From NCBI RefSeq assembly GCF_002000365.1, contig NZ_MVBK01000046.1:1-64000 (forward strand): DNA of 64,000 bases, given 5' to 3'. This document shows, piece after piece, positions 2,560-58,247 of the stretch. Origin of the DNA: Thioalkalivibrio denitrificans (GTDB lineage: Bacteria > Pseudomonadota > Gammaproteobacteria > Ectothiorhodospirales > Ectothiorhodospiraceae). How positions within the stretch are numbered: position 1 is the first letter of the stretch; each line of letters begins with the position of its first letter. A program made the position numbers and the translations under genes. The notes beneath the pieces were generated by a model. That model worked only from the letters and a program-made list of their open reading frames with translations. It did not search any database and had not been told where the DNA came from.

Positions 2560-5292
2560 TCAGCCTCGTCCTTCCCGGTCCGACGGGTCGGCTTCTGCGG
2601 TTTCCGTGCGACGGGGACGCTCGGATTCGGCGTTCCGTGTACGTTCGCTGTCGCCGGAGCCAGGCGTAGACCCGGACCCGGAGCCGGATTCGGCCGGCGC
2701 AGAGCGAGGCACTGGCTGCAGTTCCGGCCGGCTTTCCGGCCGGGGGACCGGGGTTGCCACGTTCTCCGCCTTCGATGCGGGGCTTCCGTCCGCTGTGTTG
2801 AGGTCCCGCGTCGGCGCAGGGGCCGCAGGCGCTCTTGGCGGCAGCCCGGGCGGCTGGGCAGCAGCAGTATCCGGTTGTGCGGGAGCGGGCTTGTCCCGTT
2901 GCGGGGTCGGGCTTTCGCCGGATGGAGACGTTCGCTCGTCCGGGCGGGTTGCCTGCGCGGGTTGTTCCCGATTCGACGTGTCAGCCCGGGCAGGGGCGGG
3001 TGACCGCACTTCCGGCGGCGACTCGGGCTCCTTGGCCGGTGCAGGACGCGGGCCGGCGTCGGGCGCCTTCTCACGCTCCGCGTCAACCTTGGGCGGTGCC
3101 GCCTCGGCGGACTTGCCGCGCTGTTCCTCACGTAAGGGAGCGTCCTTTTCCGTGGAACCGGTGCGGCTCTGGGTGTCCGAGCCGCTGGTCTGTTGCTCCG
3201 AACCGGACGAGTCCTCACCACCGCCACGTCGGCGGCGGCGTCCACCGCGGCGTCCGCGGCTGCGCCCCGAACCGGACCTGCGGCCTTCGCTGCCGCCGTC
3301 GGCGTCCTGTTCGGGCTTGTTCGGGGTTTCCTTGGCGCCCGCCGGGGCCTTCGTGGCGGCGGGTTTTGGTTTCTTGCGCTCTTCCACCGCGGTGCCTTCG
3401 TCGGAACTGCCGCGCCGATTGCTGCGGCCGCGCCCCCCACTACCCCCACTACGGCGGTTTCCGCGACCGCGCGCGCTGCGCCCGCTCTCTTCATCCCGCG
3501 AACTGCTGCGCGATGCGCCGCGATCGCTCGGCCCACGTGTGCCGCTTTCGCCTTCGGAGGTCGTCTCACTGCTCCCGGTGCCGGCGAACAGGCTCTTCCA
3601 GACCCGGGTGAAAAATCCCGGTTGCGGGATTGCCCCGGGCGCCGTTTCAGGCGCCGGCGGCTCTGGCGGCCTGGGGGCCGGTATGGGCGGGCGGATGGTT
3701 TGTACGGCCGGGCGCTCGATGCTGGGCAGTTCCGTCGTGTCGGTGATGACTTCCTCCACATCGGGTTCCGGCAACATCTGGTAACTGCTCTTGTCGCGCA
3801 GATCCTCGGGCACGTCGTCGAAGCGAATGCGACGGACCTGGAAATGCGGTGTCACCATGTCCGGCGTCGGCACCAGGGTGACCATGACGCCGTGGCGCCG
3901 CTCGATGGCATTTACGGCGTCACGCTTTTCGTTGAGCAGGAAGGTGGAGACATCCACCGGCAGCTGTGCGAGCACGCGGCCGGTCTTCTCCTTCATGGCT
4001 TCTTCCTCGATGAGGCGAAGCACGGAGAGGGCGAGTGACTCGACGCTGCGGATGTGTCCGTGTCCGCTGCAGCGGGGACACACGATCTGGCTGGATTCGC
4101 CCAGTGAGGGACGCAGGCGCTGGCGCGACATCTCGAGCAGGCCGAAGCGCGAGATGCGCCCCACCTGAACGCGGGCCCGGTCCATTTCCAGGGCGTCGCG
4201 CAGCCGGTTCTCCACCTCGCGCTGGTTGCGGGCCGGCCCCATGTCGATGAAGTCGATGACGATCAGGCCGCCCAGGTCCCGCAGGCGCAACTGGCGGGCG
4301 ATCTCGTCGGCTGCCTCCAGATTGGTGTTGAGCGCCGTATCCTCGATGTCGCTGCCCTTGGTGGCGCGGGCGGAGTTGACGTCGATGGAGATCAGGGCCT
4401 CGGTGTGATCGATGACGATGGCGCCCCCGGAGGGGAGCGTGACCTGGCGCTGGAAGGCCGCCTCGATCTGGCTCTCGATCTGGTACCTGTTGAACAGCGG
4501 GACGTGCTCTTCGTAGAGCTTGAGCTTGCGCAGGTTGTTGGGCATGACCTGCTGCATGAACTCCTGGGCCTGCCGATACACGGCCGGATCGTCGATGATG
4601 ATCTCGGCGATGTCGTTGCGCAGGTGATCGCGCAGCGCCCGGATGATGACGTTGCTTTCCTGGTAGACGAGGAAGGGCGCCTTGCGGCTCTCGGCGGCCT
4701 CGGTGATGGCGGCCCAGAGCGTCTTGAGGTACTCGAGGTCCCACTGAAGCTCTTCCACGGCGCGGCCCACGCCCGCCGTGCGCGCGATCAGGCCCATGCC
4801 CTGGGGGACCTCCAGCTGGCTGAGTGCTTCGCGGATCTCGCTGCGGTCCTCGCCCTCGATACGCCGGGACACCCCACCCGCGCGGGGGTTGTTGGGCATG
4901 AGCACGAGATAGCGGCCGGCCAGGCTGACGAAGGTTGTCAGCGCGGCGCCCTTGTTGCCGCGCTCTTCCTTCTCAACCTGGACAATGAGTTCCATGCCCT
5001 CCTTGACCAGGTCCTTGATGGAACCGCCGTTGCCGCCATCGTCCTGGCCACCGCCGGGCAGGCAGCTGCGGGCGATCTCCTTCAGGGGAAGGAAGCCGTG
5101 GCGTTCGGAACCGTAGTTAACAAACGCGGCCTCGAGACTGGGTTCAACCCGGGTGACGACCGCCTTGTAGACGTTGGCCTTTTTCTGTTCCCGTGAGGGG
5201 ACTTCGATGTCCAGGTCGTAGAGCTTCTGGCCATCGACCATGGCCACACGCAGCTCTTCGGGCTGCGTGGCATTGATCAGGATTCGTTTCAT
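2560..5292 (-). CDS. rne: Ribonuclease E
   Basis: A 910-residue endoribonuclease, the core of the RNA degradosome, which cleaves AU-rich single-stranded RNA, processes 9S rRNA and tRNA precursors and starts mRNA decay. The S1 domain (about 37-120), RNase H-like and DNase I-like parts are all recognisable. The magnesium ligands are Asp304 (ISIDVN) and Asp347 (VIDFID), and the Zn-link cysteines are Cys405 and Cys408 (CPRC), each shifted one residue from E. coli. After about residue 520 the chain becomes a disordered scaffold rich in Ser, Gly, Arg, Pro and Glu, including Arg/Gly-rich RNA-binding blocks. The ATG at 5292 gives the conserved [10 protein letters not shown] start. Confidence 0.97.
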
Positions 5293-6721: not shown

Positions 6722-6806
6722 TGCCACAGAGGTCACAGAGGTCACAGAGAAAGAAACGCAGGCAGCGCACGAGTTGACTCTGTGCCCTCTGTGTCCTCTG
6801 TGGCTC
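6722..6806. repeat. Inverted repeat of 9-bp units (CACAGAGGT type)
   Basis: The left arm (6722-6754) consists of phased CACAGAG units at 9-bp spacing. The right arm (6776-6806) is the reverse complement, with CTCTGTG units. A 20-bp unrelated centre separates them. It lies between rluC and the downstream HAD gene on the same strand, so it would form a stem in the joint transcript. Confidence 0.85.
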
Positions 6807-7569: not shown

Positions 7570-8505
7570 ATGTCTCAAGAAAACTGGGAACGTGATGCCC
7601 TGACCAGGATCGCCCTTGCGGGCGTTCAGGAACAGCGCAGAGCGCGGCGCTGGGGTATCTTCTTCAAGCTGCTGGGTTTTGCCTATCTGTTCCTCCTGCT
7701 GGGGCTGTTCCTGACGGGGCCGTTCGCCACGGACACGCGCAAGGCCGGTCCGCATACTGCACTGGTGGATCTGCAGGGCGTGATCACTGAAGGCAGCCAG
7801 GCAAGTGCGGATCTGGTGACCCAGGGGCTGCGCAACGCGTTTCGCGACAAGAACACCGAGGCCGTGCTGCTGCGCGTGAACAGCCCCGGCGGCAGCCCGG
7901 TTCAGTCGGCCTACATCAACAACGAAGTGCGCCGGCTCAAGGAGGCGCATCCGGATACGCCCGTGTACGCAGTGATCAGCGACGTGGGCGCATCGGGCGG
8001 CTATTACGCGGTGGTGTCCGCGGACTGGATCTACGCCGATGCCTCCAGTGTCGTGGGTTCCATCGGCGTGCGTATGGATGGTTTCGGACTGGTGGACGCC
8101 ATCGACAAGCTGGGCATCGAACGCCGGCTGATGGTGGCCGGAGACAACAAGGCCCTGATGGATCCGTTTCTCCCCGTGAAGCCGGAGGACCAGGCCCACG
8201 TGCAACGCCTGCTCGACAACATCCATACACAGTTTGTGGATGCGGTGAAGACGGCGCGCGGGGATCGCCTCAACGGGTCTGACGAAGAACTCTTCGGGGG
8301 GCTGATCTGGACCGGTGACGAGGCCCTGGAACTGGGCATCATCGACGGCCTCGGCAGCCCCGGCTACGTGGCCCGTGAAGTCATTGGCCAGGAGAACATC
8401 GTCGACTTCACCCCGCGCCAGGATCTCCTGCGCCGCCTCGCCGACAGCTTCGGCGCAGCCATCGGTCGGGCCATCGTCAATCTCGGCGAACCTGCCATTC
8501 GGTGA
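7570..8505 (+). CDS. sppA: S49-family signal peptide peptidase SppA
   Basis: A 311-residue, single-domain S49 serine peptidase anchored by one N-terminal membrane helix (about residues 31-52). It degrades cleaved signal peptides in the inner membrane. The Ser/Lys dyad is visible as Ser142 in VGASGGYY and Lys194 in AGDNKALMDPF, at the 52-residue spacing expected for the short bacterial form, and the NSPGGSP loop is present. Downstream of rluC and the HAD gene as in Pseudomonas, it is probably in the same operon. It is convergent with csiV across a complex repeat. Confidence 0.93.
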   Translation: MSQENWERDALTRIALAGVQEQRRARRWGIFFKLLGFAYLFLLLGLFLTGPFATDTRKAGPHTALVDLQGVITEGSQASADLVTQGLRNAFRDKNTEAVLLRVNSPGGSPVQSAYINNEVRRLKEAHPDTPVYAVISDVGASGGYYAVVSADWIYADASSVVGSIGVRMDGFGLVDAIDKLGIERRLMVAGDNKALMDPFLPVKPEDQAHVQRLLDNIHTQFVDAVKTARGDRLNGSDEELFGGLIWTGDEALELGIIDGLGSPGYVAREVIGQENIVDFTPRQDLLRRLADSFGAAIGRAIVNLGEPAIR

Positions 8506-8523
8506 GATTTCCGAAAAGGCCTG

Positions 8524-8797
8524 TTTTAACCACGAAGCACACGAAGAGCACGAAGAGCACGAAGAGCACGAAGAGCACGAAGAAAGAAAAAAAGTTTCTC
8601 TCGCAAAGCCGCAAAGCACGCCAAGAAGATCAATAGGGCGGGCATGCCCGCCGAACCGGAATCTATCAAGGTGCGGTCGGCGCCCATGGGGCGCCCTATG
8701 CATAGATCGCTTTTCTTTGCGTGCTTTGCGGCTTTGCGAGAGAAAGGGTTTTTCTAATTTGAGTTTCTTCGTGCTCTTCGTGTGCTTCGTGGTTAAA
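8524..8797. repeat. Triple-nested inverted repeat element
   Basis: Three different inverted repeats sit one inside another. The outer arms are CACGAAGAG 9-bp units at 8524-8589 and their reverse complement at 8764-8797. The middle arms are CGCAAAGCC-type units at 8595-8629 and 8706-8746. The core (8633-8700) is a palindrome opening with ATAGGGCGGGC and closing with GCGCCCTAT. The left outer arm has five unit copies against about three on the right, showing unit-number change. It fills the 315-bp gap between the converging sppA and csiV genes; no ORF is present. Confidence 0.9.
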
Positions 8798-8820
8798 CAA
8801 CGATTCTCAATACCCCGAAG

Positions 8821-9582
8821 TCAGTCTTCCACCGGCGTGACGTGGACGATGACGCCCATCAGGGGGTGATCCAGGTAGTGGGTTTCGCCGGAGCGCATGC
8901 GCCGGCGTTCGGTGACGTGGCTCTCGGCGAATTGATCGCCCTCCAGGGTTGTCACGTGATCGCCGGGCAACCGGTCGCCGGTGGCGGGGCGGTAGAGCAG
9001 GTCGGTGTGGATGTGCAGGAAGCGGGCGAGCGTCAGGGTGATCACGCCGTCCACTTCATACAGCAGCTCCGGTTCGTCCGGTTGCTCGGGCACGCCTCCG
9101 AGCACCGGCTGGATCTGCCATGGCGCGAACGGCGGTGGCTCGAAGGCGGGCGGCATGCGGCCGAGGACCTGGCCTGACCGGATACGCACTGGTATCGCCT
9201 GCTCCTGCGGCAGTCCCGGTTGCTCCCAGGCGTAGCTTGCGATCACGTCGTAAAGGGGCGACTGTTCGAGCCGGTTGACCACGCCGCGCAGGCCGAAGGG
9301 TGTGCCCGATACATCGCGAAACAGGTGGTCCACCTCGTCCTCATCCAGTTCGGTCAGGTCCAGCGCATGCTCAAGCCCCGCCACATCACCGCTGCGCCAC
9401 ACTTCTTTCAGCAGGGCGTCGGCGTCGGTGTGGCGCAGGAGCACCACTTCCACCCGGTACATGCGCGGCTCTTCCGCCGGCAGTTTCCCGGGCAGGATGG
9501 CGGTCACGGCCAGCGCCACCAGGAGGAGGAGAGGGAACAGGGGAGAATGCGATCGGCATCGTGTCATGAATCGGGTGTCCAT
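8821..9582 (-). CDS. csiV: CsiV-family periplasmic protein
   Basis: A 253-residue secreted protein with a signal peptide (about residues 14-36, cleaved near LPAEE), then YRVEVVLLRH at the mature N-terminus and a conserved C-terminal half (HIHTDLLYRP, SETHYLDHPLMGVIV pattern). It fits the CsiV family (Pfam PF10972), described as a peptidoglycan-binding protein in Shewanella. The neighbour mfd, 19 bp upstream on the same strand, matches Pseudomonas synteny. Two in-frame ATGs (9582 and 9567) are possible starts and neither has a strong Shine-Dalgarno. Confidence 0.8.
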   Translation of the reverse strand: MDTRFMTRCRSHSPLFPLLLLVALAVTAILPGKLPAEEPRMYRVEVVLLRHTDADALLKEVWRSGDVAGLEHALDLTELDEDEVDHLFRDVSGTPFGLRGVVNRLEQSPLYDVIASYAWEQPGLPQEQAIPVRIRSGQVLGRMPPAFEPPPFAPWQIQPVLGGVPEQPDEPELLYEVDGVITLTLARFLHIHTDLLYRPATGDRLPGDHVTTLEGDQFAESHVTERRRMRSGETHYLDHPLMGVIVHVTPVED

Positions 9583-13604: not shown

Positions 13605-13725
13605 AAGCCGGAACCGCGAAGGGCGCGAAGGTATGCGCGAAGAACGCAAAGTAAGTCATTTGTGGGAAAGACCTCGCGTACTTTGCGCATACCTTCGCGC
13701 CCTTCGCGGTTCGCTTTCCGGCGGT
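13605..13725. repeat. Inverted repeat of 9-bp GCGAAGGGC units
   Basis: The left arm 13605-13652 reads as phased units GCGAAGGGC, GCGAAGGTA, TGCGCGAAG, AACGCAAAG. The right arm 13679-13725 is its reverse complement with small differences. The element begins 6 bp beyond the aguB stop and fills the gap upstream of the DUF2892 gene. The same family recurs at 39016-39130 and 59196-59300. Confidence 0.88.
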
Positions 13726-14650: not shown

Positions 14651-14859
14651 TTTCGACGCAAAGACGCGAAGACGCAAAGGAACGCAAAGAAATACCCTGT
14701 TGTCTTCCGACTAACGGTGAGATCTCCACCTTCCCTGCGAGACACAGAAATCGGAGTTATAACCGTGTCGCCGCAATCAAGTACCGCAATGAGGCATCGA
14801 CACACCGAAAGCCAACAGCCAAAGATCTTCTTTGCGTTCCTTTGCGTCTTCGCGTCGAG
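14651..14859. repeat. Long inverted repeat inside the aguA-aguB unit
   Basis: The left arm 14651-14692 (phased ACGCAAAG and ACGCGAAG units) faces its reverse complement at 14827-14859. The 134-bp centre has no recognisable gene. It starts 22 bp after the aguA stop and ends before the aguB start, so a joint aguA-aguB mRNA would contain a stem of about 30 bp. Confidence 0.85.
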
Positions 14860-22138: not shown

Positions 22139-22263
22139 AGGATTCAAGATTCAATATTCAAGATTCAAAGGGACAGCCAGGGCCTGGACCCACGCCGTGG
22201 GAAGTGAAACCACCTTGTCCTTTGAATCTTGAATCTTGAATCTTGAATCTTGAATATTGAATC
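22139..22263. repeat. Inverted repeat of 7-bp ATTCAAG units
   Basis: The left arm, four GATTCAA-type units at 22139-22172, faces six TTGAATC-type units at 22219-22263. A 46-bp centre has no gene. It begins 4 bp after the comEC stop. Same family at 28287-28401 and 50977-51067; the right arm has more units than the left each time. Confidence 0.9.
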
Positions 22264-22364
22264 CCCGAAGGGGCTCCTTCCGGCCCCTCGGGCAAATCAA
22301 GTATCATGTCTCGCGCCGGTGAGTGTGCCGGCACACGCTCATTTCCCGCGAGGTATCCGACACC

Positions 22365-27549: not shown

Positions 27550-28320
27550 ATGCCCTTCAAGGTCGCCATTCCGGCGCGTTACGCCTCGACGCGCCTGCCC
27601 GGCAAGCCGCTGCTTGAGCTCGCCGGCCACCCCATGATCCGCTACGTGCACGAGTGTGCACGACGAAGCGGTGCGCAGGAGGTGGTCATCGCCACCGACG
27701 ATGAGCGCATTCGCGATGCGGCCGAGGCCTTCGGGGCGCGGGTGTGCATGACCGATCCCGCACACCAATCGGGCAGTGACCGGATCGCCGAAGTCGCCCA
27801 CACCCTCGGCTGGAGCGACGAGGACATCGTCGTCAACCTGCAGGGCGATGAACCGCTGACACCGCCGGTGATCGTGAGCCAGGTGGCCGATGCGCTGTTG
27901 CGCCATCCTGAAGCGGCCATGGCCACCCTGTGCACGCCCGTGACCTCAGTGGAGCAGATGCTGGATCCCAACGTGGTCAAGGTGGTGCGCGACCGCAACG
28001 ACTTCGCGCTGTATTTCAGCCGTGCCCCTGTCCCCTGGGACCGCGATGCGCCGACTGCCCGTCAGCGCAGCGTCGAGGGCTGCCAGCGACATATCGGGAT
28101 CTATGCCTACCGGGCGGGATTCCTGCACGCCTTCGCCTCCATGTCACCCTGTGCCCTGGAGATCACGGAGCGTCTGGAGCAGCTGCGCGCGCTCTATGCC
28201 GGTGCCCGCATTCAGTGTCCGGAGGCCGCCGAGGTCCCGCCACAGGGGGTGGACGTGATGGAAGACGTGGAAAGGGCGAAGAAAGCGATTCAAAATTCAA
28301 AATTCAAGATTCAAGGGTAA
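27550..28320 (+). CDS. kdsB: 3-deoxy-manno-octulosonate cytidylyltransferase
   Basis: A 256-residue enzyme that activates Kdo as CMP-Kdo for LPS inner-core assembly. Motifs: IPARYASTRLPGKPL at the N-terminus, VVIATDD, SGSDRIAE, VNLQGDEPL, and HIGIYAYRAGFL. The last ten residues, IQNSKFKIQG, are translated from the left arm of an ATTCAAG repeat; the natural end was probably near VERAKKAI. The extension is remote from the active site and the enzyme should remain functional. Confidence 0.95.
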   Translation: MPFKVAIPARYASTRLPGKPLLELAGHPMIRYVHECARRSGAQEVVIATDDERIRDAAEAFGARVCMTDPAHQSGSDRIAEVAHTLGWSDEDIVVNLQGDEPLTPPVIVSQVADALLRHPEAAMATLCTPVTSVEQMLDPNVVKVVRDRNDFALYFSRAPVPWDRDAPTARQRSVEGCQRHIGIYAYRAGFLHAFASMSPCALEITERLEQLRALYAGARIQCPEAAEVPPQGVDVMEDVERAKKAIQNSKFKIQG

Positions 28321-28401
28321 AGTCGGCAATCATTTCGGTTAGCCTGAATCCTGAACGTTGAATCTTGAATCTTGAATCTTGAATCTTGAACTTTGAATTT
28401 C
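28287..28401. repeat. Inverted repeat of 7-bp ATTCAAG units overlapping the kdsB end
   Basis: The left arm 28287-28315 (GATTCAA and AATTCAA units) lies inside kdsB and reaches almost to its stop. The right arm 28344-28401 (TTGAATC units) ends 15 bp before the stop of the convergent gene. The centre is 28 bp. Confidence 0.9.
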
Positions 28402-34670: not shown

Positions 34671-34725
34671 GCTGGAATACTCACGGTGCGGGAAGGTGCT
34701 CCCGGAAGGGCAAGCCAAAGGCGTT

Positions 34726-34852
34726 CTGACAGGATTAACATGATTAACAGGATTATTCATGAAACCTCGTAATCCTGTTAATCATGTTAATCCTGTCAGA
34801 AATTCTTTCTTATCCTGTCAATCCTGAACAATCCTGTTCATCCTGTCCATTC
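34726..34852. repeat. Perfect 30-bp inverted repeat of CAGGATTAA units plus an orphan arm
   Basis: Positions 34726-34755 and 34770-34799 are perfect reverse complements over 30 bp with a 14-bp loop; the units are CAGGATTAA, CATGATTAA. A second arm at about 34814-34852 (ATCCTGTCA, ATCCTGAAC, ATCCTGTTC units) has no partner here; it equals the right arm of the element at 54168-54347 apart from a few bases. It ends 5 bp before the stop of the next gene. Confidence 0.92.
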
Positions 34853-50976: not shown

Positions 50977-51067
50977 ATTCAAGATTCAAAATTCAAGATT
51001 CAAGGGAGGGGAGGGCAACCTCATCTTTGAATCTTGAATCTTGAATCTTGAATCTTGAATGTCGAAT
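50977..51067. repeat. Inverted repeat of 7-bp ATTCAAG units after rpoS
   Basis: The left arm 50977-51005 (ATTCAAGATTCAAA pattern) faces 51026-51067 (TTGAATC units). The centre is about 20 bp. It spans the space between rpoS and the convergent DUF498 gene and ends 6 bp before the latter's stop. The right arm has about two more units than the left. Confidence 0.9.
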
Positions 51068-54167: not shown

Positions 54168-54347
54168 ATGGACAGGATGAACAGGATTTTTCAGGATTGA
54201 CAGGATCTAATGAAGCGAAAAGAAATAGACATGAATAACAGGATTAAGAGCATTGAAGAAATAATCATGTAAATGCTGTTAGTCCTGCTAATACGCTTTC
54301 TTGTCCTTATCCTGTCAATCCTGAGAAATCCTGTTCATCCTGTCCAT
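54168..54347. repeat. 39-bp inverted repeat of ACAGGATNN 9-bp units, nested
   Basis: The left arm 54168-54206 (units ACAGGATGA, ACAGGATTT, TTCAGGATT, GACAGGATC) and right arm 54309-54347 are reverse complements with one mismatch in 39. Between them a weaker pair (ACAGGATTA near 54239 and GTCCTGCTAAT near 54282) suggests an older inner element. It fills the 211-bp gap between hom and thrC on the same strand; no ORF. Confidence 0.92.
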
Positions 54348-58080: not shown

Positions 58081-58101
58081 AGCGCGTTGAACGGACAGAG
58101 A

Positions 58102-58242
58102 ATGGACAGGATGAACAGGATTTTTCAGGATTGACAGGATTCAAGACGAAAAACATTTGACAGGATTAACAGGATTTACATAACTATTCGTGAAAGGCCT
58201 TTAATCCTGTTAATCCTGAAAAATCCTGTTCATCCTGTCCAT
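58102..58242. repeat. 40-bp inverted repeat of ACAGGATNN 9-bp units, nested
   Basis: Left arm 58102-58141 and right arm 58203-58242 are reverse complements with one mismatch in 40. An inner GACAGGATTAACAGGATT (about 58159-58176) can also pair with the same right arm, so two alternative stems are possible. It lies between converging stops, 22 bp after sulP and 5 bp before the end of the next gene. Confidence 0.93.
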
Positions 58243-58247
58243 TGCCT

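Follow-up and report, generated by a model that had tools for sequence, protein, structure and literature searches.

A three-layered composite palindromic repeat between convergent genes of Thioalkalivibrio denitrificans and its probable assembly by insertion into hairpin loops

The window analysed here is a 64,000-nucleotide stretch of Thioalkalivibrio denitrificans DNA. The 315-bp gap between a gene for an S49 peptidase and a convergent csiV-like gene is filled by a composite repeat element (Table 1). Its outer layer, H, is built of CACGAAG 9-mers, its middle layer, M, carries the motif TCTCGCRAAG, and its inner layer, at 8633-8699, is a REPIN-like doublet of REP hairpins, of which two exchangeable kinds occur. 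A sequence-only reading had described three nested inverted repeats of different families, and this description was confirmed by the matching arms of H and M and the inner REP-like pair; the three-layered form also recurs at dozens of sites at the ends of genes. The CACGAAG array comprises six heptads on the left (8529-8582) versus three on the right (8767-8793), and the three surplus 9-mers of the left outer arm keep the layers from being a perfect palindrome throughout.

Table 1. Features of the composite locus and its flanking genes (window positions)
Feature	Position	Strand	Evidence
S49 peptidase gene, 3' end towards the element	7570..8505	+	PF01343, E 1.7e-29
Outer layer H, left arm (TTTAACCACGAAGCACACGAAGAGCACGAAGA)	8525..8556	+	32/32 complementary to 8766-8797
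Three extra CACGAAG 9-mers of the left H arm, partnerless on the right (array expansion)	8557..8582	+	sequence
Middle layer M, left arm TCTCGCAAAGCCGCAAAGCACGCCAAGAA	8599..8627	+	one mismatch versus right arm; 47 two-armed copies in 838 kb
Inner REP-like hairpin ATAGGGCGGGCATGCCCGCC, left half of the 67-bp doublet, type X	8633..8652	+	same doublet in other M loops
Inner REP-like hairpin GGCGCCCATGGGGCGCCCTAT, right half of the 67-bp doublet, type X	8679..8699	-	same doublet in other M loops
Middle layer M, right arm	8713..8741	-	one mismatch versus left arm
Outer layer H, right arm	8766..8797	-	32/32 complementary to 8525-8556
Convergent CsiV-like gene	8821..9582	-	PF10972, E 8.3e-30

Modelling of the fold, proposed as a check by the earlier reading, showed that the locus is far more stable than shuffled sequences. 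The DNA fold reached -103.1 kcal/mol versus -45.2 +/- 3.9 for the shuffles (z = -14.7) and the RNA fold -163.5 versus -89.3 (z = -14.0), and no shuffle equalled the locus in either case. A scan for terminators and promoters was negative for both, with no intrinsic terminator (GC stem plus U tract) in 8450-8870. Rfam gave no match to a curated family, the only hit being tfoR at 16.2 bits against a gathering score of 70, and the plasmid collection contained no match. The same reading had proposed looking for single layers at this locus in relatives. Here, the congener G002 has nothing, G004 has a CGCAGAG hairpin, and in G003 a GTAGGATGGG doublet lies next to a CGCAGAG hairpin. These states do not reveal in which order the layers were assembled here.

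The window also contains further inverted repeats, at 6723-6804, 13611-13712, 14663-14856, 22140-22264, 28287-28400, 34724-34801, 50977-51067, 54168-54347 and 58101-58243. These belong to other short-period families, namely CACAGAGG, CGCGAAG, CGCAAAG, ATTCAAG and ACAGGAT. The left arm of the tandem families is nearly always purine-rich.

The families were followed through the 3.64-Mb genome (167 contigs). Layers were counted in sampled stretches of 838 kb and nesting order in 945 kb; several of these stretches were picked for holding the motif, and their densities do not represent the genome as a whole. Across the complete genome, the outer motif CACGAAGNNCACGAAG was counted 330 times, far above chance, since its reversed-pattern control occurs four times. 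The four congeners have 15, 3, 3 and 5 such H motif pairs versus 330 here; the composite is thus strongly expanded in this lineage. Shared genes of this genome and the congeners are mostly 75-85% identical in nucleotides, locally up to 91%, while G003 and G004 are ~94% identical to each other and G001 and G002 ~85-99% in the flanks of the compared sites. The recurring plan is TTAACCACGAAG(NNCACGAAG)n, an A-rich spacer and TCTCGCRAAG..., followed by a 67-bp ATAGGGCG doublet (X), an 85-87-bp GTAGGTTGGGG doublet (G) or a plain loop. M hairpins with both arms numbered 47 in 838 kb, of which 28 had H on both sides and 26 had both ends of an inner doublet. Partial combinations were also present: doublet-bearing M lacking H, H or M on its own, and H-M without a doublet. 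The doublet lengths (67, 85-87 bp) and the spacings are nearly constant among loci.

The order of the layers is fixed. In 945 kb, there are 23 cases of H around M and none of M around H, and ten of M around the GTAG doublet with no reverse case; M lies around the REPIN in every nested case. Twenty of the 28 GTAG REP copies lie between both M arms and 25 adjoin at least one M arm. Two of the other three adjoin arms of other purine-arm repeats, and one is solitary.

The inner layer is strongly centred, the outer approximately so. For all nine GTAG doublets that have clean arms, the relative position in the loop is 0.47-0.52, with host loops of 29-31, 53-54 and 66 nt, and the X doublets are central in most copies although not in all (0.08-0.62 of the loop). 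Empty M loops measure 26-55 nt (mean 40), close to the host loops minus their insert (29-66 nt, mean 44). The precise centring claimed earlier held only approximately: at this locus the layer centres, 8661, 8670 and 8666, are concentric to within 9 nt, but eight of the 28 H-M pairs in the sample are off-centre by 32-57 nt because of extra DNA in one spacer. Off-centre insertion at random arm positions had been named as the finding that would count against loop targeting. The off-centre pairs partly correspond to it, but their extra DNA lies in the spacers and not inside the arms; insertions that interrupt arms would be harder to recognise with the patterns used.

Comparison with the congeners revealed orthologous H-M sites whose inner layers differ. 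At C59:33686, this genome and G002 match in the flanks and in the H and M arms, but the inner doublet is X here and GTAG in both G002 and G001. The inner layer differs again at C59:30527 and C59:48860 (X or an X remnant here, GTAG in G001 and/or G002), where the outer layers are at least partly shared. The present inner layers are therefore younger than the outer ones, since orthologous sites, of which only five have H-M shared with relatives, agree in the outer layers and differ in the inner. The spacer at C59:33686 is also found in the neighbouring C59:29338, ~4 kb away, and the payload difference may reflect arm recombination instead of fresh insertion. At C15:13438, the inner doublet is 82% identical to that of G001 when inverted versus 70% when direct, and the linker is not decisive.

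Other sites in the genus carry different repeats. Two intergenic sites with an H-M-X composite here, C33:54005 and C90:921, carry an ATTCAAG hairpin in congeners, the former in all four and the latter in G001 and G002. At C90:921, G004 has a CGCAGAG hairpin that encloses an ACAGGAT hairpin. The site of a 168-bp inverted-repeat element at C59:32362-32529 is empty in G001/G002; G003 and G004 have many dispersed copies similar to this element (84-96%).

The direct case of loop insertion is found on contig C125. This contig has an intact M hairpin at 46-140, another with a nearly identical loop at 3593-3687, and one that is split (~866-2560). The split loop holds ~1.58 kb encoding a RAYT-kind Y1 transposase (PF01797), a MazE-like antitoxin (PF11455) and a PemK/MazF-like toxin (PF02452). 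GAAAGGRGATC stands on both sides of the insert, as GAAAGGGGATC and GAAAGGAGATC, an 11-bp duplication. In T. sulfidiphilus ALJ17 (G003), the M hairpin is uninterrupted and has the same left flank, with 97% identity over 669 bp. The site is thus empty in one genome and filled in the other, with the break falling in the loop. The M arms on C125 do enclose a RAYT gene, but on a segment inserted into a pre-existing loop. This sole clean loop insertion carries a RAYT gene and not a REPIN. Among the loci compared, we found no pair of otherwise identical hairpins with and without a REPIN, and a comparison of emptied loops with M-only loops for before/after paralogues of the REPINs gave no clear match. 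Neither H and M nor the REPIN showed a recognisable target duplication; for H and M, this was also the case against the near-empty orthologues of C4:30047 and C90:13729, where the congeners are too diverged.

C125:245-912 is 97% identical to contig C4 of G003 (L237), in a genus whose shared genes are ~80% identical, and this similarity suggests a recent transfer of a segment that carries M hairpins. At C19:31787-33262 (L261), an H-M-GTAG composite has identical arms 1.4 kb apart, and an insert of ~1.2 kb separates its GTAG doublet from the right M arm. The insert includes a gene for a 191-aa protein without a Pfam match, and the outer and middle arms are still identical on both sides.

Both inner doublets, the 67-bp X and the 85-87-bp G, consist of two inverted REP hairpins with a short linker, as REPINs do. 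They resemble published REPIN/RAYT systems (PMC3116915, PMC2817692) in this structure and size, in high copy number, in intergenic position and in the presence of Y1 transposases in the genome. The G doublet has the GTAG terminal tag (GTAGG...CCTAC) and fits the published GTAG class; GTAG REPs of Thioalkalivibrio HL-EbGR7 are listed in PMC3733652. Unlike the REPIN/RAYT systems, the doublets here occur almost only inside M loops, none of the eight RAYT-type genes is flanked by them, and the 67-bp type starts with ATAG, not GTAG, the copy at this locus beginning with ATAGGGCG. The eight genes, identified as matches to PF01797 (Y1_Tnp, IS200-like), were scanned over +/-1.5 kb. One was flanked by GTAGGTCGG and the rest by other repeats or none, and neither the GTAGGTTGGGG (G) nor the 67-bp (X) doublet flanked any of them in that range. 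One X copy lies 275 bp from a RAYT fragment.

REP dimers within palindromes were described in three other genomes in 2013, including GTAG-15 of A. variabilis and GTAG-23 of T. roseum (PMC3733652). As in those genomes, a REP doublet lies here within a longer palindrome and recurs in one genome. In contrast, the earlier cases have two layers, and two of the three lack empty host palindromes, whereas the present system has three layers, two host families, two exchangeable doublets, empty hosts and a cross-species comparison. Insertion sequences at the symmetry axis of REPs are also known, such as ISPsy8 and ISRm22 (PMC1525189). The present insertions resemble them in position at the palindrome axis of a repeated hairpin and in a short direct repeat, and differ in that the target is another hairpin family (M) and the inserts are mostly non-coding doublets, one carrying RAYT and MazEF.

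MITEs are short, non-coding, dispersed elements with inverted termini and lineage-specific expansion. The H and M layers, with terminal inverted repeats and many dispersed copies, resemble MITEs in all of these respects but have no recognised target duplication or parental transposase. In the literature searched, we found neither the H or M families described, nor a fixed-order composite of three layers, nor a cross-species payload difference, and a search for the motif strings returned nothing relevant. We came across hardly any account of composite palindromes of this sort, and the present small genome set allows tests of hairpin-loop targeting, arm homogenisation and local spread.

Many nested loci look like copies of finished composites. 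Interior (non-arm) sequence is shared between composite loci, mostly between near ones: in five of the seven best distinct pairs both loci lie on the same contig, versus ~6% expected. The left and right H-M spacers are weakly complementary (P 0.006), as are the left and right M-GTAG spacers (P 0.03), suggesting that finished symmetrical composites may have been copied as units. The arms also agree at variable bases more often than chance predicts, though by no means everywhere, with a concordance of 58% versus 26% for H and of 242 versus 205 of 352 for M, where many variable positions are mismatched. In G001, a copy of the downstream flank has taken the place of one M arm, with GGCACGGGGCA microhomology at the junction, which is the signature of a template switch. 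Template switching between the arms of inverted repeats homogenises arms and inverts spacers (PMC8604942), and it creates and maintains hairpins (PMC8794818).

The elements are enriched between convergent genes, where 23 of 49 lie, compared with 105 of 502 among intergenic regions (P 2e-5, with genes called by a simple ORF rule), and they avoid divergent gene pairs (four of the 49). A role in RNA at the 3' end is possible judging from this placement, but tolerance of mobile palindromes away from promoters explains it equally well. The elements are most likely tolerated parasites, possibly mRNA-end hairpins, and not classical terminators.

Taken together, the layer order is fixed, the inner doublet is exchangeable and mostly central, and a 1.6-kb RAYT-MazEF segment has entered one M loop, accompanied by an 11-bp duplication. 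We consider the locus to be one copy of a composite palindromic mobile repeat (H, M and an inner REPIN-like doublet) that was nested by loop insertion and then spread as a finished composite, with a probability of about 0.6. M would have entered the loop of H, and REPINs would have entered the loop of M, probably via a RAYT/IS200-type transposase acting on single-stranded hairpin DNA. Recombination, or template switching during replication, through the shared arms would then have spread the finished composites, for the most part locally; the same switching would re-symmetrise layers and occasionally flip or delete them, and selection would leave copies at gene 3' ends. The proposal that new elements favour the loop of an existing hairpin is thus supported for this system, by the empty/filled pair, the orthologous H-M hosts with differing doublets and the central GTAG doublets in M loops of varied size. 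It does not hold as a general property of hairpins and appears specific to certain ones, since the inverted repeats of ATTCAAG (58), GAAGGAT (56) and ACAGGAT (30) had no insert of another named family in 945 kb; the sole inner repeat in the ACAGGAT family is one that is unclassified.

The precise centring of the layers had been called hard to explain by random insertion. The nested loci are not all independent events, and copied composites may have carried much of this centring along. A single palindromic MITE, in which H, M and the doublet formed once as a unit and all nested loci are its copies with no loop targeting, would account for the near-constant doublet lengths and spacings, for the interior sequence common to neighbouring loci, and for spacers that are weakly complementary and, for H-M, alike in composition. 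We nevertheless regard it as rather unlikely, because the layers also occur in partial combinations, two unrelated doublets occupy the same place, even within the same orthologous H-M, and the M loop that holds the RAYT-MazEF segment here is empty in ALJ17. The mRNA-end interpretation can be extended to the whole structure, with the hairpin kept as a bidirectional terminator or 3'-end stabiliser and nesting selected for a longer stem. The convergent placement, the very stable fold and the arm concordance agree with this, whereas the locus has no terminator-like U tract, the same intergenic site in congeners holds unrelated hairpins or none, and the arms mismatch at many variable positions; this explanation appears improbable. 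Stepwise outward growth of the arms, suggested by the earlier reading as the other route and conceivable as fold-back template switching that adds inverted flanks around an old hairpin, could draw on the template switching visible at these hairpins. It is disfavoured by the outer layers, which are specific dispersed families rather than copies of local flanks, exist as H-only and M-only hairpins, and are common to species while the inner layer differs, and we consider it extremely unlikely. The series of layers, the empty hosts, the differing payloads and the one empty/filled pair indicate nesting by loop insertion, not outward growth.

Arm sequences of a related hairpin family differ between the genomes. 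ATTCAAR heptamer hairpins (e.g., at L305:6152-6270 and on contig C21 of this genome) have GTTCAAR in both arms in G002, with the orthologous flanks and loops conserved. Pure GTTCAA trimers account for 317 of 426 in G002, 53 of 276 in G001, 6 of 228 in G000, 0 of 248 in G003 and 0 of 219 in G004. The change in G002 looks like a genome-wide concerted rewriting of hairpin arms. It is conceivable, though decidedly unlikely in our estimation, that a hairpin-directed process both places DNA at the tips of chosen hairpins and rewrites their arms. Such a process, as yet undescribed and perhaps relying on a dedicated protein that recognises the heptads, which also occur in unrelated phyla, would copy and homogenise the arms of H, M and related families of 7-9-bp period where they stand, even genome-wide.

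CACGAAG 9-mer inverted repeats were observed in other phyla, on contigs of Opitutae, Chloroflexi, Desulforhabdus, Phycisphaerae, Brevundimonas and Rhodanobacteraceae (L148, L157, L171, L172, L179, L182, L187, L212). The ACCACGAAGNNCACGAAG motif was present in 38 of the 398 sampled genomes of the phylum.
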